A stretch of DNA of 36,621 bases from Acidobacteriaceae bacterium. Its GTDB lineage: Bacteria > Acidobacteriota > Terriglobia > Terriglobales > Acidobacteriaceae. Of the stretch, positions 12,842-29,346 are shown one piece after another. The stretch covers positions 1 to 36,621 of the forward strand of contig PLPA01000191.1 in NCBI GenBank assembly GCA_003159355.1, read 5' to 3'. The position numbers and the translations under genes were made by a program. Within the stretch, counting starts at the first letter, position 1. Every line of letters starts with the position of its first letter. The notes under the pieces are model-generated. The model had not been told where the DNA came from. It did no database searches and saw nothing but the letters and a program-made list of their open reading frames with translations.

Positions 12842-12880
12842 CTTGTAACGTTATCCCAGCGTTCCGCAACGGTTACAAGT
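12841..12880. terminator. Hairpin between convergent operons
   Basis: ACTTGTAAC (12841-12849) pairs with GTTACAAGT (12872-12880); with one bulged base the stem extends to 12 bp. It lies exactly between the converging kinase and acyltransferase genes. No long U-tract follows on either strand, so it may be a bidirectional terminator of modest strength. An alternative stem GATAAC/GTTATC (12837-12855) overlaps it. Confidence 0.45.
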
Positions 12881-13553
12881 ACTTTTCGACAAACTCCTCG
12901 GCGCTCATCTTGCGCAGGTCGGGCATGGCGATTTCGAGCTTCTCGCGCGGCCAATCCCACCATGCCAGCTTGAGAAGCCCCTCCTGCACTTTCTCGGGAA
13001 AGCGAAAGCGAATGTGCTTTGCCGGCACGCCGCCTACGATGGCAAAGGGCGGCACATCTTTGGAGACGACCGCGCCTGCGCCGATGCCTGCGCCTGTGCC
13101 GATTCTCACGCCGGGAAGAATGACCGCGCCGTGGCCGATCCACACATCGTTTCCCAGGGTAACTCTATGCTCTTTTCGCCACTCGAAAAACTCGTGATCG
13201 TCTTCGACCGCAAAGCCATACGATTCGCTGCGGTAAGTGAAGTGATGCAGCGCGGCGCGCCACATGGGATGGTTTCCTGGATTGATGCGGTTGGCCGATG
13301 CGATGGAACAGAATTTGCCGATGTCGGCCCATACGATACTACAGTCGTTGACGACATAGGAATAGTCGCCGAAGGTGGATTCTCCCATTGAGGTTCGTGG
13401 ACCGATCGATGTGTAAGGCCCAAGTACGCACTTGCGCACGCGAGCGGTGGGATCGATGCGAGGCTCCAGTCCAAGGGACTGTCTTTTCGCCTGGGTCTGA
13501 TCCGCCGGTGGATCGGGCAGGGTCTCCATTGGTTCAAGGTGTGTGGTCGCCAT
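12873..13553 (-). CDS. Phosphonate-cluster hexapeptide-repeat acetyltransferase
   Basis: The 226-residue protein is a left-handed beta-helix acyltransferase of the xenobiotic/chloramphenicol acetyltransferase type. Repeats with a hexapeptide rhythm (…DPTARVRKCVLGPYTSIGPRTSMGESTFGDYSYV…, IGHGAVILPGVRIGTGAGIGAGAVVSKDV) frame an extruding loop with the likely catalytic His in NPGNHPMWRA (about residue 95). Relatives with this layout recur in C-P lyase operons and have been named phosphonate-metabolism transferases; the acceptor is not known. The start at 13553 is preferred because GGAGAGAAAG precedes it; an ATG at 13571 is possible. It is the last gene of the exporter-led block. Confidence 0.85.
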   Translation of the reverse strand: MATTHLEPMETLPDPPADQTQAKRQSLGLEPRIDPTARVRKCVLGPYTSIGPRTSMGESTFGDYSYVVNDCSIVWADIGKFCSIASANRINPGNHPMWRAALHHFTYRSESYGFAVEDDHEFFEWRKEHRVTLGNDVWIGHGAVILPGVRIGTGAGIGAGAVVSKDVPPFAIVGGVPAKHIRFRFPEKVQEGLLKLAWWDWPREKLEIAMPDLRKMSAEEFVEKYL

Positions 13554-13592
13554 CTCTTTCTCTCCATTCATTGATTTGAATTGTTGCTGGAA

Positions 13593-15026
13593 TCAGTGGG
13601 CGGTTATGTCCTGCAACTCCCGATGAACCTGCGCGGCTACTTCGGGCAAGGACAACATGCATTGCGCAAGGATGCGCTCGTGGCTTCTTGCATCGAAGCC
13701 CTCGATACGCAACGACAGGACAGCTTCAGTCCCGGACTCACGAACCAGGACGACGCCGTCTTTCAGGGTGAAGCGAAGACCGTCGATTTTCAAGATGCCG
13801 GCTTCGGGAAATGCGGCGGTCAACGCATCCACAGCTCTACTGAAGGTCAGCGATTCAGTTGGTATGCGCAACTCCGGCATAGCGAAGATTTGTGGCAGGC
13901 CGCGCCGAAGCTGGGCCAGCGACAGACCCTTCTGTTGCAACAGATCGAGAATGAAGAGCGCGGCAAAGAGTCCATCGTCACCGCCGTTCAGCTCCTCAAA
14001 GAAGTAGTGGCCGCAGGCGTCGAGGCCCATCAACGCCTGCTCAACCACCATCCGGCCGCGCATGAAGGCATGGCCAGTCCGTTCGAGGAGTGGTATTCCT
14101 CGAAGCTGCTCGATGGCGCGACGCACGAGGTCGGAAGATTTGATATCGACGACAATCCTGCGGTTTGCAGAGCCAGTCTTGTCTTGTTCCTCAAGCACCG
14201 CATGGGTCAACAGGATCGCTATCTCATCCGGAGAGACAAAGATTCCTTCTTCATCGACAAAGGCAACGCGGTCTCCATCGCCGTCCCATGCAATGCCGAT
14301 CGAGTCTGGCTGCTCGGCAACCGCACCGCTCAAGCGCGTGAGATTGGATGCGCGCGAGCAATCCGGGGAGCGGTCGGGAAAGTTGCCGTCGATGACGCAC
14401 GATATGCAAGTCACATCGAAGCCCAGGCGGCGGAATATCTCCGGAGCGATCTCCGACCAGGCTCCGTTTCCCGCATCCAGTACTACTTGTCCAGGCCCGT
14501 TTGCATGGAGATGGTTCCACCGCTTCAGCAAGGTTCGCTCATAGTCCTGGAGAAGATTGATCTCTTCTCTGTGGCCGCTACCGGGGCGAAATGCGCGCTT
14601 TATGGTAAGCGCGCGTATCTTGGCGAGTTGCTCTGGAGTTGTAGGAGACGAGCCGAGCATCAGCTTAAGTCCATTGTGAGAGGCTGGATTATGCGAAGCA
14701 GTCACAATCAGCACCGCATCCGCGTTGACCCGGCTGGCTGTAAAATACGCCAGCGGAGTGGGGCCTTGTCCTGCATCCAGAACATCAACGCCAGTTGCGA
14801 GCAGCCCTTCTGCAAGAGCGTGCTTCAACGCAGGCGTGCTCAATCTGAAATCTCCCGCAACCACCACGCGAGAAGAAGGCGGAAGCATGGTGCCGATCGC
14901 GCCGCCAATATCGCGGAAGAGTTCAGTCGAAACGGCATCTGGAAAGACGCCGCGCAGGTCGCAGGGCTTCCACGGATCTGACTCAGGCAAGATCAACTCC
15001 TCTGCCATGGCATGATTCATTGTCAT
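13593..15026 (-). CDS. Phosphohexomutase (phosphomannomutase/phosphoglucomutase family)
   Basis: From the ATG at 15026, which overlaps the upstream stop as ATGA, the protein has 477 residues, the usual length. It has all four alpha-D-phosphohexomutase landmarks: the catalytic serine loop TASHNP (Ser111), the Mg loop DGDGDR (248-253), a sugar-binding loop that reads EELNGGDDG where GEMSGH-like sequence is usual, and a phosphate-binding loop RESGTEA instead of R-x-SGTEP. These enzymes move phosphate between C1 and C6 (or C5) of sugar phosphates. The altered sugar loop suggests a non-standard substrate. Placement between DUF1045 and the hexapeptide transferase in a phosphonate block is unusual. 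A role in isomerising ribose phosphates released by C-P cleavage is inference. Confidence 0.88.
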   Translation of the reverse strand: MTMNHAMAEELILPESDPWKPCDLRGVFPDAVSTELFRDIGGAIGTMLPPSSRVVVAGDFRLSTPALKHALAEGLLATGVDVLDAGQGPTPLAYFTASRVNADAVLIVTASHNPASHNGLKLMLGSSPTTPEQLAKIRALTIKRAFRPGSGHREEINLLQDYERTLLKRWNHLHANGPGQVVLDAGNGAWSEIAPEIFRRLGFDVTCISCVIDGNFPDRSPDCSRASNLTRLSGAVAEQPDSIGIAWDGDGDRVAFVDEEGIFVSPDEIAILLTHAVLEEQDKTGSANRRIVVDIKSSDLVRRAIEQLRGIPLLERTGHAFMRGRMVVEQALMGLDACGHYFFEELNGGDDGLFAALFILDLLQQKGLSLAQLRRGLPQIFAMPELRIPTESLTFSRAVDALTAAFPEAGILKIDGLRFTLKDGVVLVRESGTEAVLSLRIEGFDARSHERILAQCMLSLPEVAAQVHRELQDITAH

Positions 15027-15760
15027 GAAGACCTCAAGTAGACCCGATCCAGAAGCTGAAACGGTGCTTCCGGATGCGACTCGTGAAAGATGCAAACAGA
15101 ATCGACCAACAATGCCTCGCCACAAACCGATGCAAAGCGTTGGCGGAGATATTGTTTAAGAGGCGGCAGCGCTTCCGGAGGCATAGAACCGGTGAGCGAC
15201 ATATGAAACTTCCAGGTATCGAGGACGTAAGGATAACCCCATCGCAAGACATATTCCCGCTCCCGCAGAGAGAGAGAGTCTCGCAATCGTTGCGCCAATT
15301 CGGCCTCCGTGGCTGGGAGTCGATAGCGATCAAACTCGCGTACGCAATCGGTTGCCAGATGGCAGAACTCTTCGCTCGATGCCGACAGAGTGAGGGCGAG
15401 AAACCGTCCCAAGGTTCCTATGCGAAGTGGGGGCGCGCAAAAGCAAACGTGTCTCTTGGCTAATTCGTGGAGAGCTGCCTGCAAATCTTCATACGTTGCG
15501 TTTTCCGCAAGCCGAAAGGGAGGCTTGAGAGTTGCATGAAACCCATAGCGGCGCGGGCTTTCGGTAGCGCGCAGCCATTCTTCATGTTGGATGTGATCGG
15601 GCAAATCTGGATCGAGATCGGCGCCTGTGGCGGCGTCACGGCCAAGCCATCGACTGCCTTGACCGTAGAGCGGCGCACTGGGGCTGGGGCAGAAGTAGAT
15701 TGCGTATCGCGATGTGTTTCCGTTCAGATCGTGCATATTAAAATCGGTCCTCTTTGCCAT
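15023..15760 (-). CDS. DUF1045 family protein of phosphonate operons (2H phosphoesterase-like)
   Basis: The 245-residue protein shows two H-x-T/S motifs, HAT at residues 75-77 (YGFHATLKPPF) and HMS at 186-188 (KFHMSLTG). These are the paired catalytic motifs of 2H phosphoesterases, which act on cyclic phosphodiesters. DUF1045 proteins recur in phn operons without an assigned step. Since phnP, the enzyme opening 5-phosphoribosyl 1,2-cyclic phosphate, is absent here, this protein could do that reaction (inference). The gene follows the ABC exporter gene after 19 bp and overlaps the mutase by 4 bp. The start may be 15760 or 15736; the latter has an AAAGAGGA sequence upstream. Confidence 0.85.
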   Translation of the reverse strand: MAKRTDFNMHDLNGNTSRYAIYFCPSPSAPLYGQGSRWLGRDAATGADLDPDLPDHIQHEEWLRATESPRRYGFHATLKPPFRLAENATYEDLQAALHELAKRHVCFCAPPLRIGTLGRFLALTLSASSEEFCHLATDCVREFDRYRLPATEAELAQRLRDSLSLREREYVLRWGYPYVLDTWKFHMSLTGSMPPEALPPLKQYLRQRFASVCGEALLVDSVCIFHESHPEAPFQLLDRVYLRSS

Positions 15761-15779: not shown

Positions 15780-17753
15780 CTACAGCGTAGGTTGCAGCAG
15801 GTGTCCGTTACCATGTTGCTTTGATGCGGCGCCATGCGCCTGATGATGCGCCTCCAGCGGAATGCTCGCGGAGAAGACTTCTTCGGATTCAGTCTGATGT
15901 CCAAACTGTATCTGAAAAAGCCGCCAGTAAAGCCCGCGCAGGTCAAGCAACTCCTCGTGTGTGCCGATCTCCGCGACCTTGCCTTTGTGCATCACCAGAA
16001 TTCTGTCTGCGGTGAGAATTGTTGATAGACGATGAGCGATCACGATTGAGGTTCTGTTTTCGATCAAACGGTTCATGGCTCCGCGAATGCGCGCTTCGGT
16101 CTCGATATCAATATTCGAAGTGGCTTCATCCAACAGCAGATATTGTGGATTGTGGGCTAGCGCGCGGGCAAAGGCAATCATCTGCTTCTGTCCGGTGGAG
16201 AGATTATCGCCGCGCTCTTGCACCCACGTCTCCAGCCCCTCCGGCAAATCTTGCAGCAGCGCGTCCAGCCCTATCTGGTGGGCTGCGCGCATCGCATCCT
16301 CGTCAGTCAACGTCTCGGAGCCAAAGCGAATGTTGTCCAGAATCGTTCCTTCGCGGACGTACGTGTCCTGCAGGACGGCGCCGAACTGACGGCGCAGATC
16401 GGAAGGGTGCATCTCCCATATATCGATGCCGCCGATGCGGATGGTTCCACGCTGCGGCCGATAAAACCGCAACAGAAGATTGCTTATGGTTGTTTTGCCC
16501 GCGCCCGTGTGCCCAACGATCGCCAGCATTTCACCGGCGCGAATATGGAAGCTGACATCGTTCAACACCCAGCGGTCAGCTTTGTAAGCAAACCATACAT
16601 TCTCGAATGCGATATCGAGGCCGCCGGGCTTTGCCTCGGTACGCGGCTCCAAGTCCGCTGGAGCTTCCGTGTCAAGAAGAGCGAAGACCTTTTCGGCGGA
16701 GACGATGCTGGTCTGCAAGATGCTGTACCGCTCGCTGATCTCCTGGATGGGACGCAGGAATTTGGTTCCATATTGCAGGAAGGCAACGAGCGTTCCGATG
16801 GAGAGGCCGCCGGGATGGAGCAGATGGGCGCCGACGATGAGCAGTCCGGCCTGCGAGATGGTGCCGAGCAACTCGATGGACGGCATGAACCATGCGTTGG
16901 CCGTGACCCACTGCTTGGATGCCTCCATGTGTTCGCGGTTGATCGCGTCGAAGGTCTCCAGGCTCGTCTGCTGGCGATTGAACAGATGCACCACGTAGAT
17001 GCCGTTGACATGCTCGGCGATGAATGCGTTGATCCGGGCCAAGAGAATGCGGACCCTCTGCTGGCTGCGGGTGATGATGCGGCGGAATATCGTGGTCAAG
17101 ACTACGAAGACGGGAATGACGGCGGCCAGCACCAGCGACATATTCCAGTTGATGCGGACCATTGCGGCAAGAAAGAAGAGGGTCATTACCGCATTGGCCA
17201 GCAGGGCTACGATTCCGTTGGCGAATAGATCGTTTAAAGCCTCGATATCCGTGGTGAGGCGCGTCACCAATCGCCCGGCCGGAGTTACATCGTAGTAGCT
17301 GACGGGGAGTTGGTGCAGATGCTTGAGCAATTTGCGGCGAAGGTCGGCCATGGCCATCTGGCCGGTCCACTGCGCCAGGAAGTTCTGTGCGCTGTCGATC
17401 ACCAGCGTTAGCGCGAGCACGCCGAGATACACGACGGAAAGCAGAGCGATGCCCCGCGTGGAGTTTTCCGGCAATACGCCGGCAAGCGGTCCCCATTTTG
17501 TCGCGTGTTTGAGGAAATACACATCAATAGCGACGGAAAGAATCAGCGGGTTGAGGACCTGTAGCAAGGTGGAAACGAGAGAGCAGACAAGGGAAGCGAA
17601 GACGCAGATCCAATAGGGCGCCAGAAGCTTCAGCAGGCGCGAGAGCAGATACCAATCGCGGACATTGGCGGAGACTTCCTCGGCATTGGCGTTGCCACTG
17701 CCCATGCCTCTGCCGCCGCCTCCGCCATGCAGGCCAAATCCGTAGGCGCTCAC
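15780..17753 (-). CDS. ABC exporter half-transporter B (consensus ATP site subunit)
   Basis: The 657-residue protein has a Gly-rich N-terminus (residues 7-20), a six-helix exporter membrane domain (about 45-345) and an ATPase domain. The ATPase has Walker A GHTGAGKT (414-421), signature LSTGQ (518-522) instead of LSGGQ, Walker B YLLLDE (538-543) with the catalytic Glu, and the switch His574. Together with its partner it fits a heterodimeric exporter of the BmrCD/TM287-288 type: this subunit's Walker sites pair with the partner's normal LSGGQ to make the competent site. Such pumps expel drugs, lipids or peptides. The start overlaps the partner's stop by 4 bp. The substrate is unknown. Confidence 0.92.
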   Translation of the reverse strand: MSAYGFGLHGGGGGRGMGSGNANAEEVSANVRDWYLLSRLLKLLAPYWICVFASLVCSLVSTLLQVLNPLILSVAIDVYFLKHATKWGPLAGVLPENSTRGIALLSVVYLGVLALTLVIDSAQNFLAQWTGQMAMADLRRKLLKHLHQLPVSYYDVTPAGRLVTRLTTDIEALNDLFANGIVALLANAVMTLFFLAAMVRINWNMSLVLAAVIPVFVVLTTIFRRIITRSQQRVRILLARINAFIAEHVNGIYVVHLFNRQQTSLETFDAINREHMEASKQWVTANAWFMPSIELLGTISQAGLLIVGAHLLHPGGLSIGTLVAFLQYGTKFLRPIQEISERYSILQTSIVSAEKVFALLDTEAPADLEPRTEAKPGGLDIAFENVWFAYKADRWVLNDVSFHIRAGEMLAIVGHTGAGKTTISNLLLRFYRPQRGTIRIGGIDIWEMHPSDLRRQFGAVLQDTYVREGTILDNIRFGSETLTDEDAMRAAHQIGLDALLQDLPEGLETWVQERGDNLSTGQKQMIAFARALAHNPQYLLLDEATSNIDIETEARIRGAMNRLIENRTSIVIAHRLSTILTADRILVMHKGKVAEIGTHEELLDLRGLYWRLFQIQFGHQTESEEVFSASIPLEAHHQAHGAASKQHGNGHLLQPTL

Positions 17754-19567
17754 ATGACCTCCAGTTCTTCTTCAAGCACCTGCAAAGACGCTAGACGCGC
17801 ATAGCGCCCTCTCTTTTGCAAGAGAGTAGAGTGCGTGCCCTCTTCGACGATGCGGCCATGCTTGAGCAGGACGATGCAGTCTGCTTGCATGGCGGTCGCC
17901 ACGCGATGAGTGACCAGAATCGTTGTGCGTTCCGCCATGATGCTCTTGAGATGTTCGAGAATGCGTTGTTCGGTCACCGAGTCCACGCTGGAGAGCGCAT
18001 CGTCCAGGATCAGGATGCGCGGATTCTTGAGGACCGCGCGGGCGATGGCGATGCGCTGCTTTTGGCCTCCGGAGAGCATGATGCCGCGCTCTCCGACGAC
18101 AGTATCGAAGCCCGACGGCAACGCCGCCAGATCGGGATCGAGTCCGGCGATCGTCGCCGCGTTTCCGATCTCTTCTTTGGTTGCGCCATCAACACCGAGC
18201 GCGATGTTTTCCGCAAGGGTCATGCTGAACAGAAAGGTCTCTTGCGGCACGACACCCACCAGCGTTCGCAGAGCCGTCAGCGGAAGTTCGCTGCAATCCA
18301 CGCCGTCAAACGCGATGCTGCCCTCACTCGGATCGAGCGAGCGCGTCAGCAGCTTGACCAGCGTGCTCTTGCCCGATCCAGTTTCGCCGAGAATGGCTAA
18401 AGTGGCCCCGGCGGGAATATCGAGATTGATCGAATCCAGCGCTTTATGTTCGCCAAAGACGACGCTTACCTGGCGCAGCGAAATGCTGGCGGGCGCATGG
18501 TGGACGTTCGTCTGATGAGCGCCATGCGATTCAAGCCACTGGCCGGGATCGATCGAGGGCGCTTCGTCAAAGAGCAGCTTCAACCGTCCCACAGAGGCCA
18601 TGCCGCGTTGCATGATATTGACGACGCGGCCCAGGTTGGAGATGGGGCGCGCGAGCATGGCCATATAGGTTGTGAACAGCACGAAATCGCCTACCTGCAA
18701 GGTTTTTGCAACAACCAGCGCCCCACCGTACCAGAGAACGATGAGCACGGAGATTCCAGTGATAAAGGTCAGCAAGGGGTCCAGCGTACTGCTATAGATT
18801 CCCAGGATGCAGTTGGAGCGCACGTAGGACTGATTCATTCCTTCAAAGCGGTGCTGTTCGGCCTCTTCGCACACAAAGGATCGAACGACACGCGCGCCTG
18901 CAATGGTCTGCTGCACGGCCGCGCTCATGGTGGAAAACTGAGCCTGAATCCGATCAAAGCGCCGCCGGATGATCTTTCCATAGCGCATCAGCAGCAGCAC
19001 GGCAAGGGGCGCGGGAAGCAGTGCGGCGGCGGTCAACCGCCAATTGACTGAGCCAAGAATAACAATCGCCACGGGCAAAGAAATCAGGGACTCAATGAGA
19101 GAGGTGAGTCCCGGACCCAGCATCATGCGTACGGCGTTCAGATCGTTGGTGGCCAAGGCCATCACGTCTCCGGTGCGCGTTCGCCCCCAAAAGGACGCGT
19201 CGAGCCGGAAGAGGTGCTGAAGGAGGTCCCTGCGCATCGCGTATTCGACATTGCGCGAGGTGCCCATCAGGTTGAGGCGCGCAATGGTCTGAAAGGCGGA
19301 GCGGGGGATGGCCACACCAACAATGGCCAAACCGATCCATACAATACCCTCCCGCGCGTTGCCCCTCGAACCTGTCAATGTGTTGATTCCAGCGCGGATC
19401 AGCAACGCAATGGCGGGGGCGACGCTCTCGCGGCCTATCATGCTGAGGCTGCCGAAGAGAAGCGCGCGCGGATAAGCCTTCAGATATGCCCAAACGAAGG
19501 CAAATCGCTGAATAAACGGGACGAAGGCTTCGTCCTGCAGAAATCGGTTGGCTGAGTTTTCCTGCAC
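17750..19567 (-). CDS. ABC exporter half-transporter A (degenerate ATP site subunit)
   Basis: The 605-residue protein has six membrane helices (about 35-325) and an ATPase domain. The ATPase has Walker A GETGSGKS (394-401), signature LSGGQ (498-502), Walker B ILILDD (518-523) with Asp in place of the catalytic Glu, and His554. Asp there is the hallmark of the non-hydrolysing site in heterodimeric exporters, matching the LSTGQ of subunit B. The start codon is GTG with no Shine-Dalgarno. A TAATAT box at 19579-19574 lies just upstream, so the transcript may be leaderless (inference). The palindrome site 2 sits just upstream of that box, in the position of a repressor operator. It heads a five-gene block with phosphonate-linked genes. 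Confidence 0.92.
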   Translation of the reverse strand: MQENSANRFLQDEAFVPFIQRFAFVWAYLKAYPRALLFGSLSMIGRESVAPAIALLIRAGINTLTGSRGNAREGIVWIGLAIVGVAIPRSAFQTIARLNLMGTSRNVEYAMRRDLLQHLFRLDASFWGRTRTGDVMALATNDLNAVRMMLGPGLTSLIESLISLPVAIVILGSVNWRLTAAALLPAPLAVLLLMRYGKIIRRRFDRIQAQFSTMSAAVQQTIAGARVVRSFVCEEAEQHRFEGMNQSYVRSNCILGIYSSTLDPLLTFITGISVLIVLWYGGALVVAKTLQVGDFVLFTTYMAMLARPISNLGRVVNIMQRGMASVGRLKLLFDEAPSIDPGQWLESHGAHQTNVHHAPASISLRQVSVVFGEHKALDSINLDIPAGATLAILGETGSGKSTLVKLLTRSLDPSEGSIAFDGVDCSELPLTALRTLVGVVPQETFLFSMTLAENIALGVDGATKEEIGNAATIAGLDPDLAALPSGFDTVVGERGIMLSGGQKQRIAIARAVLKNPRILILDDALSSVDSVTEQRILEHLKSIMAERTTILVTHRVATAMQADCIVLLKHGRIVEEGTHSTLLQKRGRYARLASLQVLEEELEVM

Positions 19568-19592: not shown

Positions 19593-19721
19593 CTAACGTA
19601 TGTAAATATTTCATGTATCGCTGAACGCTTCTGAATGACTGTGGAGTGCGTCGCGTGAAGATAAATGTTTTTTTCATATTGCTGCAACATTCCTGCCGAC
19701 GCGGTGTGCCATTATCTATTC

Positions 19722-19735
19722 ATTCGTACACGAAT
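19722..19735. promoter_or_regulatory. Palindromic operator candidate, site 3 (phnG operon)
   Basis: ATTCGT and ACGAAT form a perfect 6-bp inverted repeat around AC. The site is 111 bp upstream of the chosen phnG start and shares ten of the twelve core positions with site 1. It lies in the divergent region between the exporter block and phnG. No clear -10/-35 pair is seen next to it. Confidence 0.55.
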
Positions 19736-19846
19736 CTATCGCGTCGAAGAGGAATGACCGCAGACGGGATTTGCGTCAGAGGCATTCATCCGCGGGCGAA
19801 CCGGCTGGTTCGGGCGCCTGGGTTGGAAAAGGGGACGGATTCTGGA

Positions 19847-20314
19847 ATGACAGCCAATCTTGTGAACCGAAATTCGCATGAAACGGGAGAACTCGGACTG
19901 GGTCCGGACTACACTCTGTGCGAATGCGAATTGGAGCCATTGAAGCAACTGGTTGCGCGGCTGGAGCGGGCCAGCCAGGTTGAAGTTCGAAAGAGTCCTT
20001 CGGTTTGCCTGACCATGATTCCCGCCGAGGACTCGCTGGAAAAGCAGAAGTTCTTTCTTGGCGAGGCTCTGACGACGGAGTGCGAGGTAGCCGTGGATGG
20101 TCTTCCGGGCTTTGGACTTTGTCTTGGGGACGAACCCGTCCGAGCGTATTGCATCGCCGTGGTGGATGCGCTGTTGCATGGAGATCGCCCTGCTCCCATC
20201 GAGGTCGAAGCGTTTCTTCGCGAGCAGGGTGAGGCGGTTGCCCGCCGCGATCAGGACGAGTTCGATCTGGTGCTCCAGACGCAAGTTGACTTCAAGCTGA
20301 TGGAGGAAGAATGA
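19847..20314 (+). CDS. phnG: C-P lyase complex subunit PhnG
   Basis: From the ATG at 19847, with GGGGACGG as ribosome-binding site, the product is 155 residues, the normal PhnG length. It has the family core FFLGEALTTECEVAVDG and the conserved AYCIAVVDALLHG, ending RRDQDEFDLVLQTQVDF. PhnG is part of the PhnGHIJ core and, with PhnI, is needed to couple phosphonate to ATP ribose. The frame is open upstream to ATG codons at 19754 and 19646; 19754 has an AGAGGA directly against it and would add 31 residues without family similarity. The stop overlaps phnH by 4 bp. Site 3 lies upstream. Confidence 0.88.
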   Translation: MTANLVNRNSHETGELGLGPDYTLCECELEPLKQLVARLERASQVEVRKSPSVCLTMIPAEDSLEKQKFFLGEALTTECEVAVDGLPGFGLCLGDEPVRAYCIAVVDALLHGDRPAPIEVEAFLREQGEAVARRDQDEFDLVLQTQVDFKLMEEE

Positions 20315-20934
20315 GCACTCTGGTAACAGTTCAGCCCTATAACCAAATCTTCGATGGACAGAAGCACTATCGCACCTTGCTGCAATGCACCGCTCGTCCT
20401 GGAACCATTGGCCAGCTCGACGATGCGTTGCTGAATCTTCCATCGCAATTGAACCGCGCTACCGCACTGCTTGCGCTGGCTCTCTTCAGCGGAGACATCT
20501 CATACTATCTGGACGAAAACCAAGCGCAGGCCGCTAATTTTATCCGCAGCGAGACGGCTGCCAAGCCGATCTCCGCCGAGCAAGCGGACTTCCTGATTCT
20601 TACCGACGGAAACCGGCTTGAGGGGCTTCAGCAGGCCAAGCCGGGAACTCTTTCGTTTCCGGATCAAGGCGCTACCGTTGTGTTGCAGGTTTCGGCAATC
20701 TCTCCTGCTCCGCTGGCGGATTCTCTGCGCCTGACGCTGACAGGGCCGGGAATCGAATCTGAAACCGTGGTGTTCGTACTGGGCGCCTGCGAAGAGTTCT
20801 TTGCAACTTTGCGGGAACGCAATGCGGAGTTTCCTTTGGGCGTTGATGTTTTTCTTACATGCGACAGCTTGTCGGCGGGTCCGTGCGTGATGGCTCTGCC
20901 GCGCACTACGCGCGTGCAATGGGAGCGGATATAA
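20311..20934 (+). CDS. phnH: C-P lyase complex subunit PhnH
   Basis: The 207-residue protein matches PhnH: YNQIFDGQKHYRTLLQCTARPGTIG at the start (the F-R-x-LL-x-A-x-ARPG region), a central GPGIESETVVFVLG, and the C-terminal FPLGVDVFLTCDSLSAGPCVMALPRTTR. PhnH is a PLP-transferase-like fold without cofactor that binds in the C-P lyase core complex; its chemical role is unclear. It overlaps phnG (ATGA), indicating coupling, and precedes phnI by 36 bp. Confidence 0.93.
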   Translation: MSTLVTVQPYNQIFDGQKHYRTLLQCTARPGTIGQLDDALLNLPSQLNRATALLALALFSGDISYYLDENQAQAANFIRSETAAKPISAEQADFLILTDGNRLEGLQQAKPGTLSFPDQGATVVLQVSAISPAPLADSLRLTLTGPGIESETVVFVLGACEEFFATLRERNAEFPLGVDVFLTCDSLSAGPCVMALPRTTRVQWERI

Positions 20935-20970
20935 AAGAAGTTTCAACTGGAATGCGGGGATGGTGACGGA

Positions 20971-22137
20971 ATGGGATATGTAGCAGTCAAGGGCGGACAG
21001 GACGCGATCGAAAATGCGATCAAGCTGGTCGACTACTTCCGTTGGAAGGGGCGGACCAAGCCGATCGAACTCGATCAGGCGCGTACCCAAATGCGGCTGG
21101 CAGTGGACAGAGCCATGGGCGAGGGATCGCTCTATGCGCCGGAGCACGCGGCGCTGGCGTTGTTGCAGGTGGAGGGCGATTCCTTCGAGGCGGCCTTTCA
21201 TCTGCGCGCTTATCGGGCCACACTCGAGCGCCGCTACGACGCCGAGATTCTGAATACACGAGAGATGTTTGTGCACCGCCGCATCTCTTCAACCTTCCGC
21301 GATATACCAGGCGGCCAGATACTCGGTCCCACCCGGGATTACTCCTTTCGGCTTCTTAATCCAGCTCTTCTCAATGCCAGCCTCGGTTCCATCGAGAAGT
21401 TTCTCTCCGATCTCCGCGACGAGATCGATCCCAACAAGCTGCATGAGATGACGACCTACAAGAAGGTGATCGATATCTTCCTGAAAGAAGGTCTAATGAG
21501 CAGTCAGGCGCGCCCCGGCGAGGACCGGCGTGTCTTCGATGTAACGCGCGAGGCGATCAAGTTTCCCGTGCCGCGCTCCGCCACGCTACAGATGCTGGCG
21601 CGCGCCGAGACGGGCGCGCTGATGTGCATGGCCTATAGCACCATGCGCGGCTTCGGCATGGCGCATGGAACCGTGGGCGAACTGCGCGTCGGTGAAGTGC
21701 CGGTGCGCGTTGTGGATAAGCGCGGACGGCTGCGTTGCGTGGGCAAGATCAAAGTCTCCGAGGCCGAAATGGTAGGCGGATCCGGTCACGGGCAGGGTGA
21801 GGGTGGCGGTCGCGCGGCAAAAAAGACGGGCGCACCAAGATACTCGATCGGTTATGGCCTCTGTTTTGGGCAAAACGAGACCAAGGCCATCTGCATGGGC
21901 ATGGTTGAAAGCGCGCTGCGCAATCCCAACTCGGATAATCCCGCGAACAATCAGGAGTTTGTTCTCTATCACACCGAAGTGATCGAGGGATATGGATTCA
22001 CCAACCATCTCAAGCTACCGCACTACGTAACTTTCCAGGCAGGCATGGAAGGCGCTCGCAGAGTAGCCCGGAAGAACAGCGATAAGGCAGAACAAGTGAC
22101 CGTAAGCGCGGGCGGCGTGGAGGAAAACAATGATTGA
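20971..22137 (+). CDS. phnI: C-P lyase complex subunit PhnI
   Basis: The 388-residue protein begins MGYVAVKGGQDAIENA, as PhnI does. It keeps DIPGGQILGPTRDY, AYSTMRGFGMAH, RYSIGYGLCFGQNE and NHLKLPHYVTFQ. His346 and His351 in that last motif correspond to the two invariant histidines that bind metal at the PhnI-PhnJ interface in E. coli. PhnI has nucleosidase activity and, with GHL, transfers ribose-triphosphate to the phosphonate. A Gly/His-rich insert (residues ~269-287, GGSGHGQGEGGGR) expands one loop. It overlaps phnJ by 8 bp. Unlike PhnJ, no key residue looks lost. Confidence 0.95.
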   Translation: MGYVAVKGGQDAIENAIKLVDYFRWKGRTKPIELDQARTQMRLAVDRAMGEGSLYAPEHAALALLQVEGDSFEAAFHLRAYRATLERRYDAEILNTREMFVHRRISSTFRDIPGGQILGPTRDYSFRLLNPALLNASLGSIEKFLSDLRDEIDPNKLHEMTTYKKVIDIFLKEGLMSSQARPGEDRRVFDVTREAIKFPVPRSATLQMLARAETGALMCMAYSTMRGFGMAHGTVGELRVGEVPVRVVDKRGRLRCVGKIKVSEAEMVGGSGHGQGEGGGRAAKKTGAPRYSIGYGLCFGQNETKAICMGMVESALRNPNSDNPANNQEFVLYHTEVIEGYGFTNHLKLPHYVTFQAGMEGARRVARKNSDKAEQVTVSAGGVEENND

Positions 22138-23014
22138 AAATCTCAAGTTTCAGCATAGCTTCAACTACGCATACATCGACGAGTTCACCAAGAAAGAGAT
22201 ACGGCGTAAGACACTCAAGGCGGTTTGCATTCCCGGCTATCAGGTTCCTTACTCTTCACCGGAGATGCCGATCTCGCGCGGCTGGGGAACCGGCGGCTTG
22301 CATCTGACGCTCTCTCTGGTAGGACCGGACGATGTGCTGAAGGTGATCGATCAAGGCAGCGACGCCAGCGTGAACGCCTGCAATCTGCGTCTCTTCATCA
22401 AGGAGATGTCCAATTGCGCAGTCACCTTCGATACCGCCGAGGCCACGCTAATTCAGACGCGCCATCGCGTGCCGGAAGAGATTCTTACCGAGAAGCAGAT
22501 TCTAGTTCTCCAGGTGCCGCAGCCGGAGGTTCTTCGCGGCGTTGAGAGGCATGAGGCCAAGACTCGCATAATGCACGGCGAAGCCGATTACGCGAAGATC
22601 TGGGTGACTCTGTATGAAGCCTATGTTAGAAGCGGTACTCTGCGCAACGGCGCCGGCCATCCCATCATGGTCAATGGGCGTTATGTTGCCACGCCGTCTC
22701 CGATTCCGAGCTGGGATGTGCCGAATCTGAATAAGGCTCGCTGCCTCTATCTCTTTGGCGCGGGGCGCGAAAAGCGCATCCATTGCATTCCTCCCTTCAC
22801 CCGCGTCGAACCGCTGGAATTTGAAGATATTCGCTTCAAGGTGGAAGAGTTTGTCGGCGTTCGCTGCTCGACGTCCGGTCAGGACAAGGCGTTCATGGAT
22901 CAGGTCTACGCAGACGACCTGAGCAGCAGTTACGTGATCAACGACAGTAACTTTCTCGACAAACTGCGCAAAGGGCCACGGCCGCCGCAGAAACTCTTTA
23001 CCAATCCCGAATAG
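22130..23014 (+). CDS. phnJ: PhnJ-family C-P lyase catalytic-subunit homolog lacking conserved cysteines
   Basis: The 294-residue protein aligns with PhnJ from end to end: AVCIPGYQVP with the glycyl-radical Gly (Gly36), GWGTGGLHLT, DVLKVIDQGSDAS, TLIQTRHRVPEE, NGRYVATPSPIP and LFGAGREKRIH…PPFTRVEPLEFED. In E. coli PhnJ, Cys241, 244 and 266 hold the [4Fe-4S] cluster and Cys272 carries the thiyl radical. Here the matching positions read C246, S249, I270 and L276, so three of four are gone although the reading frame is intact. Other cysteines (33, 84, 96, 205, 219) are not in that pattern. Radical-SAM C-P cleavage by the known mechanism is therefore doubtful. A TGGAGG ribosome-binding site precedes the start. 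The gene sits in the normal place between phnI and phnK. Confidence 0.93.
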   Translation: MIENLKFQHSFNYAYIDEFTKKEIRRKTLKAVCIPGYQVPYSSPEMPISRGWGTGGLHLTLSLVGPDDVLKVIDQGSDASVNACNLRLFIKEMSNCAVTFDTAEATLIQTRHRVPEEILTEKQILVLQVPQPEVLRGVERHEAKTRIMHGEADYAKIWVTLYEAYVRSGTLRNGAGHPIMVNGRYVATPSPIPSWDVPNLNKARCLYLFGAGREKRIHCIPPFTRVEPLEFEDIRFKVEEFVGVRCSTSGQDKAFMDQVYADDLSSSYVINDSNFLDKLRKGPRPPQKLFTNPE

Positions 23015-23028
23015 GAATGAAGGCCGCG

Positions 23029-23868
23029 ATGAATAACAATTGGTTGTTGCGTGTTCGGAATCTGACCAAGATTTATGGTGAAGCTACGCCGGGAGTGCTG
23101 GAGCGTACCGGGCCAAAATTCGATACGAATATCTGCTCCAGGACCGGCGCCGTCGTTGCAGTGAACGGCATCAGCTTCGATCTTTATCCGGGCGAGGTGC
23201 TGGGCGTTGTTGGAGAGAGCGGGTCGGGCAAAAGCACGCTGGTGCAGATGCTTTACTTCGATCAGGAAGTAACTGCGGGCGAGGTAAACTTCAAGCCCAT
23301 CGAGGACGGCAACGTCAACCTCTTCGAGCTTTCCAACCAGAAGAAGCGCTACGTCCGCAATCACTTGATGGGCATGGTCTATCAAAATCCGCGGGATGGG
23401 TTGAACTTCCGCTTTACTTCCGGCGGAAATATCGCCGAGAAGCTGCTTATGGCCAATGTCTTCAACGTAGGCAAGATTCGTATTCGTGGCGCCGACCTGC
23501 TGACCAAGACCGAGGTGCCCATCCAGCGCATGGATGAATCTCCGGCGCGCTTCAGCGGCGGAATGCAGCAGAGGGTGCAGATCGCCAAGGCCATCGCCAA
23601 CAATCCTCCGCTGCTGCTGTTGGACGAGGTGACCAGCGGTCTCGATGTCTCCGTGCAGGCCAAAGTCCTGGACCTGATTCGCGGCCTGCAACAGGATCTT
23701 GGTGTATCGATGATCGTCGTCTCGCACGATCTCGGCGTGATCCGCATGTTGACCGACCGCACCATGGTTCTGAAGCACGGCCAGATCGTCGAACAGGGAC
23801 TGACCGATCAGATTCTGCAAGACCCGCAGCATGGATACACACAGCTTCTGGTCAGTTCGCTGCTCTAG
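23029..23868 (+). CDS. phnK: C-P lyase ATP-binding subunit PhnK
   Basis: The 279-residue ABC-type ATPase has Walker A GESGSGKS (62-69), the Q-loop at 119, signature FSGGMQQ (175-181), Walker B LLLLDE (195-200) and VVSHDLGV. The PhnK-like LTDQILQDPQHGYTQLLVSSLL closes the protein. PhnK docks on the GHIJ core and is required for phosphonate use in vivo. An insert of about 20 residues (20-42) with a Cys precedes the first core strand. The ATG at 23029 with AAGG upstream is preferred over 23017, where AGGA abuts the start. It directly follows phnJ. Confidence 0.92.
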   Translation: MNNNWLLRVRNLTKIYGEATPGVLERTGPKFDTNICSRTGAVVAVNGISFDLYPGEVLGVVGESGSGKSTLVQMLYFDQEVTAGEVNFKPIEDGNVNLFELSNQKKRYVRNHLMGMVYQNPRDGLNFRFTSGGNIAEKLLMANVFNVGKIRIRGADLLTKTEVPIQRMDESPARFSGGMQQRVQIAKAIANNPPLLLLDEVTSGLDVSVQAKVLDLIRGLQQDLGVSMIVVSHDLGVIRMLTDRTMVLKHGQIVEQGLTDQILQDPQHGYTQLLVSSLL

Positions 23869-23912
23869 CGAGTGTGAGCGCGCAAGGTACGGACAGAGAA
23901 AAAGAGGACAAG

Positions 23913-24629
23913 ATGGGATCGTTATTGGAAATCGTGGACTTGGAAAAACGGTTTGAGTTGCACATCCTCAATGAGAAAGAGATCGATGCTCTGCATGATG
24001 TCTCCTTCGATGTGAAAGAGGGAGAAATCCTCGCACTGACCGGCAAGTCAGGCTCGGGTAAGTCGACTCTGATGAAGTGCATCTATCGGACTTATCTTAC
24101 AACCAGTGGCCGGATGATTTATCGCGATGGACAGGGCGCGGTGATTGATCTGGCATCCGCAACCGAGCATGAGGTTCTGCGGATTCGCAGGACAGAGATG
24201 ACGTATTGCTCACAATTTCTTCAAGTCATTCCGCGCGTGCCGGCAATCGATGTGGTCGCCTCCGGCTTGGTAGCGCGTGGGCGGTCGATCGAAGAAGCGC
24301 GGCGCGCTACCAGCGTATGTTTTGAACGTCTGAGTCTGCCTGCGGAACTCTGGGATGCCTATCCGTCGGTCTTCAGCGGAGGAGAACAGCAGCGCGTGAA
24401 CATTGCCCGCGCCATGATCTCGCGCCCCCGCTTCCTGCTGGTAGATGAACCGACGGCCTCTCTGGACATCACCACGAAGGATGCGGTGATCGATATGCTG
24501 CTCGAACTCAAGCTGGCCGGCACGTCGATCATCCTGATTTCCCACGACGAGCATACATTGCGAAGGATGTCTGACCGTTCGCTGCATCTGGAGAACGGGC
24601 GTCTCAAAGAAGCAGTTGTCTACGCATAA
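23913..24629 (+). CDS. phnL: C-P lyase ATP-binding subunit PhnL
   Basis: The 238-residue ATPase has Walker A GKSGSGKS (44-51), signature FSGGEQQ (154-160), Walker B FLLVDE (174-179) and switch His211. The segment YCSQFLQVIPRVPAIDVVA is characteristic of PhnL, whose Q-loop is followed by a similar VIPR. PhnL takes part with PhnG, H and I in making the ribose-triphosphonate intermediate and can stack on PhnK as a second ATPase. AAGAGGACAAG precedes the ATG at 23913; a GTG at 23874 is an unlikely alternative. Confidence 0.92.
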   Translation: MGSLLEIVDLEKRFELHILNEKEIDALHDVSFDVKEGEILALTGKSGSGKSTLMKCIYRTYLTTSGRMIYRDGQGAVIDLASATEHEVLRIRRTEMTYCSQFLQVIPRVPAIDVVASGLVARGRSIEEARRATSVCFERLSLPAELWDAYPSVFSGGEQQRVNIARAMISRPRFLLVDEPTASLDITTKDAVIDMLLELKLAGTSIILISHDEHTLRRMSDRSLHLENGRLKEAVVYA

Positions 24630-24638
24630 AGGAGAATC

Positions 24639-25571
24639 ATGAAACGCCTGTGGATCTGCTTTGTTGTACTTATTTCGGGAGTCATATTCATTTCTCTGAA
24701 TGGCTGCAAGGCAAGCCATGCTAGTGACGGAAGACCGACGGTTTTGCGTTACGCGTTTATGCCTCAGGTTGAACAGTTAGAGGGTGGTAACCTGCGCACC
24801 GAGCTGATGCGCAATTATCTTCAGAATCAGCTTCATATGCCGGTTGAGATTGTGAAATTGGAAGGATACGCCTCAACCATTGAAGCCATGCGCGCCGAGA
24901 AAATAGATATGTTCTCCGGCAGTTCGCTGACCTATCTCATTGCGGCGCAAAAGGCTGGCGCGGAAGCGATTGCCGCGCGTGGCTTCCCGGACGGCACGCT
25001 GGGCGGATACCGGTCGGTGATCGCGGTGCCCAAAGACAGTCCGATTCACTCCATGCAGGATCTGAAGGCGCACGCCAAGGATACCGTCTTCGCATTTGCC
25101 GAGCCGGCTTCCACCTCTGGATATCTGTACCCTCGCGTTGGACTGCTTGATGCGGGCATCGATCCGGAAAAAGACTTCAAGAAGGTGGTCTTCGCGGGCA
25201 ATCATATCGCCACGATTATGACAGTCAAGTCAGGCAAGGTGGGCGCGGCAGGCTTCATGCTGGGTTACATGACTCGGCTCATCGAAAAACATAAGTTGGC
25301 ACCGGACGATGTGCGCGTGATCTGGACCTCTGATCTGATTCCAAACGGCCCCTACGCAGTTCGTAAAGGTTTGCCCGATCAACTGAAGAAGGATATTCAG
25401 GCTGCGTTGATTGCCATGCCGACCAAAGCCCCGGATGCCTGGGCCAATATCAACAGCTTGTTCCGCACGCCGGCCAGCGGGACTGTGCTTATTCCTGTCA
25501 ACGATGCGACGTATGACGGCTTGAGAAAGTATGCGTCGCAGGTCAAAGACTTTAACTTTGCTGAAAAGTAG
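24639..25571 (+). CDS. phnD: Phosphonate ABC transporter substrate-binding lipoprotein
   Basis: The 310-residue protein has a lipoprotein signal ending in LNGC (lipobox 20-23, lipidated Cys23), so it is anchored in the periplasm. The mature part is a PhnD-type type-II binding protein: YAFMPQVEQLEGGNLRTEL, MRAEKIDMFSGSSLTYLIAA, GGYRSVIAVPKDSP and the phosphonate-contacting loop FAFAEPASTSGYLYPRVGL. PhnD binds phosphonates and delivers them to PhnE. A GGAGA ribosome-binding site lies 9 bp after phnL. The binding spectrum cannot be read from the sequence; phosphite or phosphate binding is possible in this family. Confidence 0.93.
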   Translation: MKRLWICFVVLISGVIFISLNGCKASHASDGRPTVLRYAFMPQVEQLEGGNLRTELMRNYLQNQLHMPVEIVKLEGYASTIEAMRAEKIDMFSGSSLTYLIAAQKAGAEAIAARGFPDGTLGGYRSVIAVPKDSPIHSMQDLKAHAKDTVFAFAEPASTSGYLYPRVGLLDAGIDPEKDFKKVVFAGNHIATIMTVKSGKVGAAGFMLGYMTRLIEKHKLAPDDVRVIWTSDLIPNGPYAVRKGLPDQLKKDIQAALIAMPTKAPDAWANINSLFRTPASGTVLIPVNDATYDGLRKYASQVKDFNFAEK

Positions 25572-25577
25572 GCTTCC

Positions 25578-26417
25578 ATGCTTCATGTATCGAACATTGT
25601 CGTACAACTTCCGAATGGCAAGCGCCTTGTGGATCAGGTGAATTTCACGGTTGGGCGCGGCGAGTTTGTCGGGATTCTCGGATCAAGCGGGGCGGGCAAA
25701 TCGATGACGCTGCGATGCATTGTTGGACTTACCCGGCCCAACGAAGGCGAGATCAGCATTACTGGATGCAACGGCAAAACCTATCGCACAACCAATGTCA
25801 AAGCGCAAGAGCTACGCAGGGCGCGGCGTCACATCGGCTTCATCTTTCAGGGATCGAATCTGGTCAAGCGGCTGACGGTATTGGAAAACGTGATGCTGGG
25901 CCGCCTGGGGCACATCAGTCCCGTTCGCAGTTGGCTGCTGGGCTTCAAGGATGCGGAGGCGCGCGAAGCGATGGTGGCGCTGGACCGCGTGAAAATGGCC
26001 CACTGCGCCGCACGAATGGCAGGTTCACTGAGCGGCGGCGAGATGCAGCGCGTAGCCATTGCGCGCGCCATCCATCAGCGCCCGCTGATCTACCTGGCCG
26101 ATGAGCCGATCTCCAGTGTCGATCCGAGGAACGCCGATGCGATCATGTCGATTCTGCAGCCTCTCTCGCACGAGACGCCGGTGATCGGCGCTTTCCACCA
26201 ACCGGCAGCCGTAGCCAAGTATTGCACGCGCGCCATCGGCATTCGCACGGGCAAGATCGTGTACGACGGTCCGGCACAAATCGCGCCTCGTCAGTTGGAG
26301 TACATCTATGGCGAGTCCGACGGTGATTCAGCGTCGCTAGTTTGGGAATCAGACGCGCAGCCGCCATTGTTCAACTCAGGTGTCGAGGCAGTTTTGCATG
26401 AAGGAGTGACCGTCTAG
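25578..26417 (+). CDS. phnC: Phosphonate ABC transporter ATP-binding protein
   Basis: The 279-residue ATPase has Walker A GSSGAGKS (35-42), Q-loop IFQGSNLVKRLTVLENV (typical of PhnC), signature LSGGEMQRVAIARAI, Walker B IYLADE and a switch-type His in GAFHQP. It powers uptake of phosphonate through the two PhnE permeases. A ~30-residue C-terminal extension beyond the usual end (…SLVWESDAQPPLFNSG…) is not recognised. It starts 6 bp after phnD, and its TAG stop shares one base with the GTG start of phnE. Confidence 0.93.
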   Translation: MLHVSNIVVQLPNGKRLVDQVNFTVGRGEFVGILGSSGAGKSMTLRCIVGLTRPNEGEISITGCNGKTYRTTNVKAQELRRARRHIGFIFQGSNLVKRLTVLENVMLGRLGHISPVRSWLLGFKDAEAREAMVALDRVKMAHCAARMAGSLSGGEMQRVAIARAIHQRPLIYLADEPISSVDPRNADAIMSILQPLSHETPVIGAFHQPAAVAKYCTRAIGIRTGKIVYDGPAQIAPRQLEYIYGESDGDSASLVWESDAQPPLFNSGVEAVLHEGVTV

Positions 26418-27286
26418 TGGGTTCATCGAGCAAAGAGTTCTTTCGGCAGGAGCCTCCGATCCTGGATTCCAAGTTCCTGGATTGGAAGTTTCTGGAGTGG
26501 AAGAAAAGTATCGCTGGCCAACGCGGTAAGCAGGCCGTGATTGCTCTGGTGCTTGTATTGCTGGTAGCCCTGACGGCGTGGCGCTGCAATGTCGATGTGC
26601 AATCGTTCATAACAGGCATCAATAAAGGCTTTCCATTGGTGGGCATGTTCTTCCCCCCCGAGTGGAGCGGGATGGCGGACATGCTGCAACCGCTCGGTGT
26701 AACAACTGTGATGGCGATGGCCGCCACAATTCTGGGGATGTGTCTGTCTCTTCCTTGCGCGCTGGCTGCGTCCTCGAACATCGCTCCACCTGTGGTGCGC
26801 CAGGTGATGCGAGCCTTCATCGCGCTGGAGCGCGGCTTGCCGGAGATTGTGCAGATGCTGCTGCTCATCGCCATCTTCGGCCTGGGCGCGGTTCCCGGCC
26901 TGGTTGCGCTCTCCTTCAGCAGCATTGGCATGTTAGCCAAGCTGCTGGCCGACGCCATTGAGGAGATTGAACCGCAGATGCTCGAAGCGGTGGCGGGAAC
27001 CGGCGCCACTCGCTCACAGGTGATCCGCTATGCGGTCATTCCCCAGATTCTTCCCGCTCTCTTTGCCAATGGGTTGTTTCGCTTTGAATTCAACGTGCGC
27101 GCGGGCGTGATCCTGGGGGCCATCGGGGCGGGTGGGATCGGATATGTGATGATGACCGCGATGAATTCCATGGACTATCAAAAGGCCTGTATGGCCACGC
27201 TGCTGACGCTGACTCTGGTCTTCTTCTCGGAGCGCATCTCCGATTTCTGCCGGACTCGCATTCTGGATGGAGGAACGCCGCGATGA
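26417..27286 (+). CDS. phnE: Phosphonate ABC transporter permease PhnE, copy 1
   Basis: The 289-residue membrane protein has about six helices, the permease coupling motif EAVAGTGATRSQVIRYAVIPQ and the PhnE hallmark FEFNVRAGVILGAIGAGGIGY. It starts with GTG overlapping the phnC stop, with GGAG 10 nt upstream. The N-terminal ~30 residues before the first helix are unusual, with a short repeat (DSKFLDWKFLEWKKS) made by near-tandem 15-bp units in the DNA. It pairs with the second PhnE to form the inner-membrane channel. Confidence 0.92.
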   Translation: MGSSSKEFFRQEPPILDSKFLDWKFLEWKKSIAGQRGKQAVIALVLVLLVALTAWRCNVDVQSFITGINKGFPLVGMFFPPEWSGMADMLQPLGVTTVMAMAATILGMCLSLPCALAASSNIAPPVVRQVMRAFIALERGLPEIVQMLLLIAIFGLGAVPGLVALSFSSIGMLAKLLADAIEEIEPQMLEAVAGTGATRSQVIRYAVIPQILPALFANGLFRFEFNVRAGVILGAIGAGGIGYVMMTAMNSMDYQKACMATLLTLTLVFFSERISDFCRTRILDGGTPR

Positions 27287-28107: not shown

Positions 28108-28137
28108 CCGAACGAAGAACAGGGAGACTGAAGAGTG

Positions 28138-29346
28138 ATGATCGAGACAATTTTGACCAATGCCCGCATTGTTTGCCCCGATTGTGAGGTGAACGGGACG
28201 CTTGTTATCGAGGATGAATGCATCGTCGATATTCTTCCCCACAACCTTCCCGACGGAATCGATCTGCACGGCGCGATCCTCATCCCCGGCATTATCGATA
28301 TCCACACCGACTACCTGGAGCGCGAGATCAGCCCGCGTCCGAGCGCCAAGATTCCGCTTGAGCTGGCCCTGCACGTCATGGATCTGCGCGCCCTCAGTTG
28401 CGGCCTTACCACCGTGTCTACCGCCGCGCGCATCTCGGAAGAACGAGTCGGCGAGATGGGGTCATGGCGCGGAGACGGTCTGGCGCTGGCCAAGCAATTC
28501 GACGAGTTGATTCCGCAGATGCGCGCGAGGCACCGCATTCACCTGCGCTGGAGCCCCAACTTTGAACCGGTCGATGACATTCTCGATCAGTTGCTCCAAC
28601 TGAAGAGCGTCGCCAATCTTGTCTTCAACGACGATATGCCCGGCCAGCGCCAGTTCCGCGACATTGAGGCAATGTTAAAGCAGCACTCCACTCGCCAGGG
28701 AATCTCGATCGAGGCGGCGCGGCAGCGTATGCAAGAGCGCATAGAGAAGGCCGGCAAAGTGAACAACCGCATGGCGGTCAAGGCGCGTGTGGCTGGCAGA
28801 ATTCCTCTCGGAAGTCATGACGACACCACGGTCGAGCACGTGATTGAAGCATTCGAGTCGGGAGCCACTCTGAGCGAAATGCCTTGCTCCATCGAGGCCG
28901 CGCGCAAAGCGAAAGAACTTGGGATGATGGTCTGCATGGGCGCGCCCAACTACTATCGCGGCGGCTCGCACTGCGGAAATCTTTCTTGCCACGATGCGAT
29001 GGCGGAAAACCTGGTGGACATCATTTGCAGCGACTATCATTTTCCGTCTATGCTGGCGTGCGCCATTCGCATGGTGGAAGAAGGCATGACGCTTCCCGCG
29101 GCCATCAATCTGTTTACTCTGAATCCAGCAACGCACCTGGGGTTTGGCGACACTACCGGCAGCATCGAATTGGGCAAGCAGGCGGACCTGGTCGCCTTTC
29201 ATCCGCACAAGGGGTACGGTGATGTCGCCCGCGTCTGGGTCGGCGGCCAGGAACGCTATTCAGCGCTCAAGAATCGTCCTTCGTCGCATCCAGGAATGAA
29301 AGAGTCGCTCCAGCCGGAAGAAGATGCCGTCCCCGCTGGCCAATAG
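28138..29346 (+). CDS. phnM: PhnM-family amidohydrolase, divergent copy 3
   Basis: The 402-residue protein is a third PhnM-type amidohydrolase but differs from copies 1 and 2: the metal motif is IDIHTDYLERE instead of VDLHTDN, the loop is FNDDMPGQRQFRD instead of MDHTPGQRQ, and it has PNYYRGGSHCGNLSCHDA and SDYHFPSMLA. Both SHDDTTVEHV and a late SDY are kept, so metal binding is likely. This version closes the phnG-E operon and may be the main diphosphatase, with copies 1 and 2 acting on other intermediates, or the reverse. A GTG at 28135 is an alternative start. The tail of ~25 residues is low-complexity. Confidence 0.9.
   Translation: MIETILTNARIVCPDCEVNGTLVIEDECIVDILPHNLPDGIDLHGAILIPGIIDIHTDYLEREISPRPSAKIPLELALHVMDLRALSCGLTTVSTAARISEERVGEMGSWRGDGLALAKQFDELIPQMRARHRIHLRWSPNFEPVDDILDQLLQLKSVANLVFNDDMPGQRQFRDIEAMLKQHSTRQGISIEAARQRMQERIEKAGKVNNRMAVKARVAGRIPLGSHDDTTVEHVIEAFESGATLSEMPCSIEAARKAKELGMMVCMGAPNYYRGGSHCGNLSCHDAMAENLVDIICSDYHFPSMLACAIRMVEEGMTLPAAINLFTLNPATHLGFGDTTGSIELGKQADLVAFHPHKGYGDVARVWVGGQERYSALKNRPSSHPGMKESLQPEEDAVPAGQ

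Follow-up and report, generated by a model that had tools for sequence, protein, structure and literature searches.

In this study, we analysed a contig of 36,621 nucleotides from an Acidobacteriaceae bacterium (PLPA01000191.1, assembly GCA_003159355.1), the whole of which is referred to here as the window, and found that the PhnJ protein encoded in its C-P lyase operon belongs to a conserved class in which cysteines of the Fe-S and thiyl-radical sites are missing. Comparison of 24 distinct PhnJ proteins of this Cys-less form, drawn from four phyla, with 37 canonical ones, all of which have all four cysteines, revealed a pattern of cysteine loss far too consistent for chance or sequencing error. 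Our preferred reading, to which we assign a probability of about 0.5, is that the Cys-less operon encodes a functional, non-radical complex resembling C-P lyase, which would act on a heterolytically cleavable bond.

The window operon and its PhnJ

The seven core genes phnGHIJKLM lie in one forward-strand operon (19646-29346) with the order phnG-H-I-J-K-L-D-C-E-E-M, in agreement with a sequence-only reading of this DNA that had called the operon otherwise complete. The first gene, phnG (19646..20314; PF06754, 74 bits), has an ORF of 222 residues whose family match (TIGR03293) begins only at residue 91, so that its true start may lie further in. It is followed by phnH (20311..20934; PF05845, and TIGR03292 above its cut-off) and phnI (20971..22137; PF05861, 397.7 bits), in which both histidines of the motif HLKLPH, the zinc ligands H346 and H351 that the same reading had described as kept, are indeed present. 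Downstream of phnJ (22130..23014) are phnK (23017..23868; best match TIGR02323), phnL (23874..24629; TIGR02324, 253.7 bits), phnD for a phosphonate-type substrate-binding protein (24639..25571; PF12974, 192 bits), phnC for a transporter ATPase (25578..26417; best match TIGR02315), the transporter permease genes phnE1 and phnE2 (26417-27286 and 27283-28107), assigned from operon position and matches to PhnE of other phn loci, and phnM (28135..29346; TIGR02318, 319.6 bits). The order G-H-I-J-K-L, the seven genes and the PhnI zinc histidines are those of a canonical C-P lyase operon, whereas canonical PhnP and PhnN were not found in the 12 Cys-less genomes tested, and 2H, PHP or other predicted phosphoesterases often lie close to Cys-less operons. 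Two extra phnM genes (9054-10211 and 11085-12278, forward strand), both over the NF011984 cut-off and with a GNAT gene between them, lie about 8-10 kb upstream of the operon without phnGHIJ genes of their own, bringing the PhnM total of the window to three.

Several genes on the reverse strand precede phnG. Two of them encode ABC exporter half-transporters (15780..19567; ORFs 15780-17753 and 17750-19567) and are divergent from phnG, a position that they share with counterparts in two other Acidobacteriaceae loci, L072 and L073; none was seen beside the operon of a further genome of the family, G183. The adjoining gene (15023..15760; PF06299, 172.9 bits; TIGR03223) encodes a DUF1045 protein with the two H-x-T/S motifs of 2H phosphoesterases, HATL and HMSL, and is a candidate ribosyl cyclic phosphodiesterase replacing PhnP. 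Beyond it are a phosphohexomutase-family protein (13593..15125; PF02878/02879/02880), in a divergent gene set of the same layout in L072 and L073, and a phn-associated hexapeptide acetyltransferase (12873..13571; TIGR03308, 293.9 bits, over its cut-off) of a type that also adjoins most other Cys-less operons.

The phnJ ORF is intact, running from ATG to TAG over 294 codons for amino acids, and its product matches PF06007 over nearly the full length of the family (391 bits; profile positions 2-273 of 275). It occupies the same slot between PhnI and PhnK as E. coli PhnJ, alpha-D-ribose 1-methylphosphonate 5-phosphate C-P lyase (EC 4.7.1.1; PDB 4xb6, 7z15-7z19), in which Cys241, Cys244 and Cys266 hold the [4Fe-4S] cluster, Cys272 is the thiyl-radical residue and Gly32 is the site of the stable radical. 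Residues 10-275 align with residues 6-271 of the E. coli chain (7z15), and the two proteins are alike in Gly32 (Gly36 in the window PhnJ), Arg107, His108, Gln124 and Cys241. The three cluster cysteines correspond, however, to C246, S249 and I270, and Cys272 corresponds to L276, which lies one residue beyond the printed alignment and is placed there because F275 matches Tyr271. The region concerned (residues 246-276; 22865..22957, forward strand) reads C-S-T-S ... V-I-N-D-S-N-F-L, with the codons TCC, ATC and CTC in the DNA for S249, I270 and L276. Without cysteines at 244, 266 and 272, the window PhnJ has neither the three-cysteine [4Fe-4S] site nor the thiyl residue of EC 4.7.1.1.

These observations bear out what the sequence-only reading had claimed of this gene, namely a full-length PhnJ that keeps Gly36, the four residues C246, S249, I270 and L276 in place of the catalytic cysteines, and the codons that encode the three substitutions. 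It had also stated that the claim should be given up if resequencing revealed cysteines or if a second canonical phnJ existed elsewhere in the genome, with the window copy isolated and under relaxed selection; Cys-less relatives occur in independent assemblies, and the window copy was the only phnJ found in the source genome (89.7% complete). Its suggestion of a substitute metal site built from C33, C205, C219 and C246 was not supported: C246 alone recurs throughout the class, and in the Chloroflexota relative the first three are replaced by A, H and A.

Distribution, selection and descent of the Cys-less class

Hosts of Cys-less PhnJ proteins were found among Acidobacteriaceae, Chloroflexota, Thermus thermophilus plasmids and Alphaproteobacteria, with complete GHIJKLM sets at loci of all four groups. 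In the family of the window, phnJ was present in two of 300 genomes, the source genome and G183, whose PhnJ is 88% identical to that of the window and likewise Cys-less, and the same form was identified in two Acidobacteriaceae MAGs (L003 and L004; 89-90% identical) and a Chloroflexi MAG (L005; 52% identical). Among 400 Chloroflexota genomes (the phylum of G656, as sampled), 37 had phnJ, and in 12 of these 37 it was Cys-less and the sole phnJ match of its genome. Further Cys-less proteins are encoded on the plasmids of T. thermophilus, including pVV8 of strain HB8, and on those of Sinorhizobium sp. B11, Mesorhizobium AR07, Rhizobium 11515TR, Haematobacter massiliensis, Nitratireductor OM-1 and Microvirga VF16. 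All four cysteines were present in the enteric, haloarchaeal, Bacillales and Actinomycetota proteins examined, as well as in those of Sinorhizobium meliloti, Variovorax and Methylibium. Beyond Chloroflexota and Acidobacteriota, the genome sampling covered one Actinomycetota class, in which nine of nine full-length PhnJ were canonical by eye, and left out Pseudomonadota chromosomes. No relative was confirmed in viral contigs. A record of Pseudomonas phage Y12 (OQ572413.1, 6958-7776) holds a PhnJ-like stretch 47% identical to the window protein, which could be host DNA. The surveys also brought to light a Chloroflexota genome (G946) with two canonical phnJ genes about 13 kb apart (L013 and L051), and, in Actinoplanes sp. 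TBRC 11911 (L006, 5056-7761, forward strand), a single frame of 902 residues that joins PhnJ to an ABC ATPase with the Walker A motif GESGSGKS and is possibly a PhnJ-PhnK fusion.

The phn cluster of T. thermophilus HB8 pVV8 is also Cys-less (C-T-V-M) and has the full GHIJKLM set; the plasmid record names it C-P lyase, and its genes have been described merely as phosphonate-metabolism genes (PMC5529391). Unlike the window operon, it has a LacI-type regulator and a TIGR00282 metallophosphoesterase nearby, the latter adjoining the Thermus clusters, and in trees it is distant from the Acidobacteriaceae. Plasmid pOT1-5 of H. massiliensis carries two phn operons. The one at about 117-130 kb is Cys-less, has the order phnFGHIJKLM-C-E-E and is accompanied by the hexapeptide acetyltransferase; the other, at 143-151 kb, has a canonical PhnJ (C-A-L-C ... 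V-C-S-D-T-D-Y-C) and phnK, phnL and phnN named by annotation. That both operons are kept on one plasmid suggests that they have separate roles. None of the open-licence papers searched described a class of Cys-less PhnJ proteins, although an earlier mention in subscription journals is possible.

The Cys-less phnJ genes of Acidobacteriaceae are under strong purifying selection. Among four of them, pairwise dN/dS (Nei-Gojobori) was 0.025-0.058 when the gene was taken as a whole, and most values for the region of the lost cysteines lay at about 0.02-0.13; these figures are rough since dS is near saturation. The comparison by alignment, tree and dN/dS that the sequence-only reading had proposed placed the Cys-less forms in conserved clades within complete phn operons and, in Acidobacteriaceae, under purifying selection. 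The Cys-less state may have had one or two origins. A PhnJ tree built without the cysteine region was compatible with one change of state, though its support was weak (69), and Tyr9, Phe85 and Gly170, which are shared by the class, favour one origin. In a joined tree of PhnH, I, J, K, L and M, however, the Cys-less forms of Chloroflexota, Alphaproteobacteria and Thermus grouped together with full support while those of Acidobacteriaceae fell elsewhere, and an AU test rejected a single Cys-less clade (p 0.023).

Active-site residues, other cysteines and gene neighbours

In the E. coli complex, 5-phosphoribosyl 1,2-cyclic phosphate (PRcP) lies at a zinc bound by PhnI His328 and His333 and is held by Arg107, Gln124, His108 and the 47-50 loop of PhnJ, the putative Fe4S4 site being about 30 Å from Gly32 and Gly32 itself 31 Å from the zinc in the open state (PMC9947105). 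Gly32, Arg107, His108, Gln124 and Cys241 are present in each of the 24 Cys-less PhnJ, the loop at 36-51 is almost unchanged in the 19 that were checked, and PhnI of Cys-less operons has both zinc histidines wherever that part was covered; the PhnI-PhnJ zinc site is accordingly present in the window and in the class. Position 244 is Ser or Thr in 24 of 24, and positions 266 and 272 are never cysteine, with L, A, V, M or G at the latter; Asp268 and Lys274 are also invariant. With the zinc and PRcP residues invariant and the Fe-S and thiyl residues gone, the Cys-less class has retained the zinc and cyclic-phosphate site and dropped the radical residues. Judged from residue conservation, the full retention of the cyclic-phosphate contacts favours an active site that is still in use over a purely structural PhnJ. 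A structure prediction made from six sequences had a mean pLDDT of 37.6, too poor for inspecting the site.

Cysteines in other subunits were also compared. Canonical PhnK of Chloroflexota mostly has a four-cysteine insertion, C-x2-C ... C-x2-C, before Walker A, as does PhnK of one actinomycete (L090-L107 and L116 for the two groups together); in the window PhnK the insertion is still there, but a single one of its four cysteines is left. The four-cysteine form was present in 18 of 20 canonical versus none of 20 Cys-less sets. A coupling of this loss to that in PhnJ does not follow, since canonical Actinomycetota (L109, L110, L111 and L113-L115) have the four PhnJ cysteines without those of PhnK, which makes the PhnK loss a correlate and not proof of coupling. 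The idea that the cysteine cluster had moved to another subunit (PhnG, H, I, K, L or M) was rejected, as no column was both invariant and specific to Cys-less sets: the columns of PhnG and PhnI in which cysteine is frequent are not invariant, that of PhnL is common to canonical forms, and none in PhnH, PhnK or PhnM was enriched in cysteine among Cys-less operons.

In 12 Cys-less genomes, no gene exceeded the cut-offs for PhnP, PhnN or PEP mutase, and the best match to TIGR03307 (PhnP) in one of the genomes searched, G000, scored 82 bits against a cut-off of 272. Other phosphoesterases were found in the neighbourhood. Counted as phmmer matches in stretches of about 15-20 kb, 2H-type genes in Chloroflexota were near six of nine Cys-less loci but near none of the 18 canonical ones (Fisher p 0.0003; p 0.003 with three near-copies merged), and the TIGR03308 acetyltransferase was near six of nine Cys-less versus one of 18 canonical loci. 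DUF1045 genes with two H-x-T/S motifs are close to the operon in the window, L072, L073 and Mesorhizobium, a PHP-domain gene ends the operon at L061, and the TIGR00282 gene of the Thermus clusters is a further candidate. These candidate genes are near, and not always inside, Cys-less operons, and 2H proteins accompany some canonical operons too. One of these is the canonical cluster of fosmid B3_TF_MPn_2, which supported growth on methylphosphonate and whose 2H protein was proposed to replace PhnP as the cyclic phosphodiesterase (PMC3840354), a likeness to Cys-less loci that is drawn from the 2H gene and not from the PhnJ cysteines. Phosphoesterases in such positions would suit a ribose 1,2-cyclic phosphate as the product but are no proof of it. 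Many Cys-less operons have PhnD/PhnCDE transporters and PhnF-type regulators alongside. G183 has a GHIJKLM operon without phnD, C or E and no PF12974 match in its genome; there at least, the substrate is not imported by a PhnD-type protein.

Function of the Cys-less complex and its implications

In the non-radical route that we favour, the PhnGHI part would couple a phosphorus substrate to C1 of the ribose of ATP and PhnM would trim the triphosphate, after which the ribose 2'-OH would attack the phosphorus at the PhnI-PhnJ zinc site and expel the organic group of the substrate with no radical step. The 5-phosphoribosyl 1,2-cyclic phosphate that would remain could then be opened by a 2H-type, PHP-type or other phosphoesterase instead of PhnP. 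As there would be neither an Fe-S cluster nor a thiyl radical, the broken bond should lend itself to heterolytic cleavage, and the substrate would most likely be a phosphate ester (P-O) or an activated phosphonate and not an unactivated alkylphosphonate. Against a P-O ester, PhnD and PhnCDE point to phosphonate-like substrates, though G183 does without a PF12974 protein. The sequence-only reading had offered either a C-P-lyase-like complex with new chemistry or a new substrate, or a PhnJ reduced to a structural role; our analyses make the first the more probable.

The structural alternative holds that PhnJ is a binding subunit of a complex that ribosylates phosphonates without cleaving them, the ribosyl-phosphonate itself being the product, which might be exported, stored or passed to another enzyme, or serve in detoxification. 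The disappearance of the catalytic cysteines from a fold that is otherwise kept, the exporter pair divergent to the operon in three Acidobacteriaceae and the lack of any other obvious C-P cleaving gene within the window are all in its favour; we nevertheless regard it as unlikely, given that Arg107, His108 and Gln124 are invariant, that phosphodiesterase genes suiting a cyclic product are close by, and that the exporters were seen neither beside the G183 operon nor in other phyla. Cleavage restricted to activated phosphonates, for example those with a carbonyl or other carbanion-stabilising group, by a heterolytic step after ribosylation would agree with the transporters and PhnF-type regulators beside many Cys-less operons, and hydrolytic C-P cleavage of such compounds is established for other families, for example PhnA and phosphonopyruvate hydrolase. 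Since activated phosphonates are normally cleaved by these dedicated hydrolases without ribosylation, the energetic cost would be hard to account for, and this explanation seems to us quite unlikely.

Two further explanations fare worse. Radical chemistry might persist through another cluster site or another activating protein: the invariant Cys241 leaves one ligand, and some steps of the radical model fit the E. coli structure poorly (PMC9947105). No second cysteine is conserved in Cys-less PhnJ, however, the other subunits offer none that is invariant and class-specific, and the annotated stretches examined contain no radical SAM gene, making such persistence very improbable. Decay, a pseudogene or sequence error would explain the absence of three essential residues, but independent genomes and complete plasmids show the same pattern in 24 proteins, the operons are intact and dN/dS is about 0.03-0.06 in Acidobacteriaceae. 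The conserved nature of the loss already refutes this explanation, whose chances we put at next to nothing, and upholds the earlier contention, based on the window, that simple decay is not the cause.

Returning to the non-radical reading, the genes labelled C-P lyase probably include, to judge from the sequences compared, a distinct class in whose work radical chemistry has no part. This matters since phnJ is the marker gene by which both C-P lyase and the aerobic release of methane from methylphosphonate are surveyed. It was called strictly conserved in a recent paper (PMC12413358). If there is a conserved class without the radical cysteines, phnJ surveys over-count, mostly where Chloroflexota, Acidobacteriaceae and rhizobia matter. 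A question for the field is how an Fe4S4 site so far from Gly32 joins the chemistry with a cyclic product at the zinc (PMC9947105), and a complex with the zinc site and without the Fe-S site separates the two and represents a natural test, which the heat-stable proteins of T. thermophilus HB8 make practical. More tentatively, and with odds that we would place somewhat short of even, several phyla may possess a second, radical-free complex for phosphorus acquisition that is annotated as C-P lyase, in which the PhnI-PhnJ zinc site alone would ribosylate the substrate and, through attack by the 2'-OH, release its organic group. In that case many of the phnJ genes now taken for methane-producing C-P lyase would cleave no unactivated C-P bond, and the Fe-S part of PhnJ would have arisen or been lost as a separable module.
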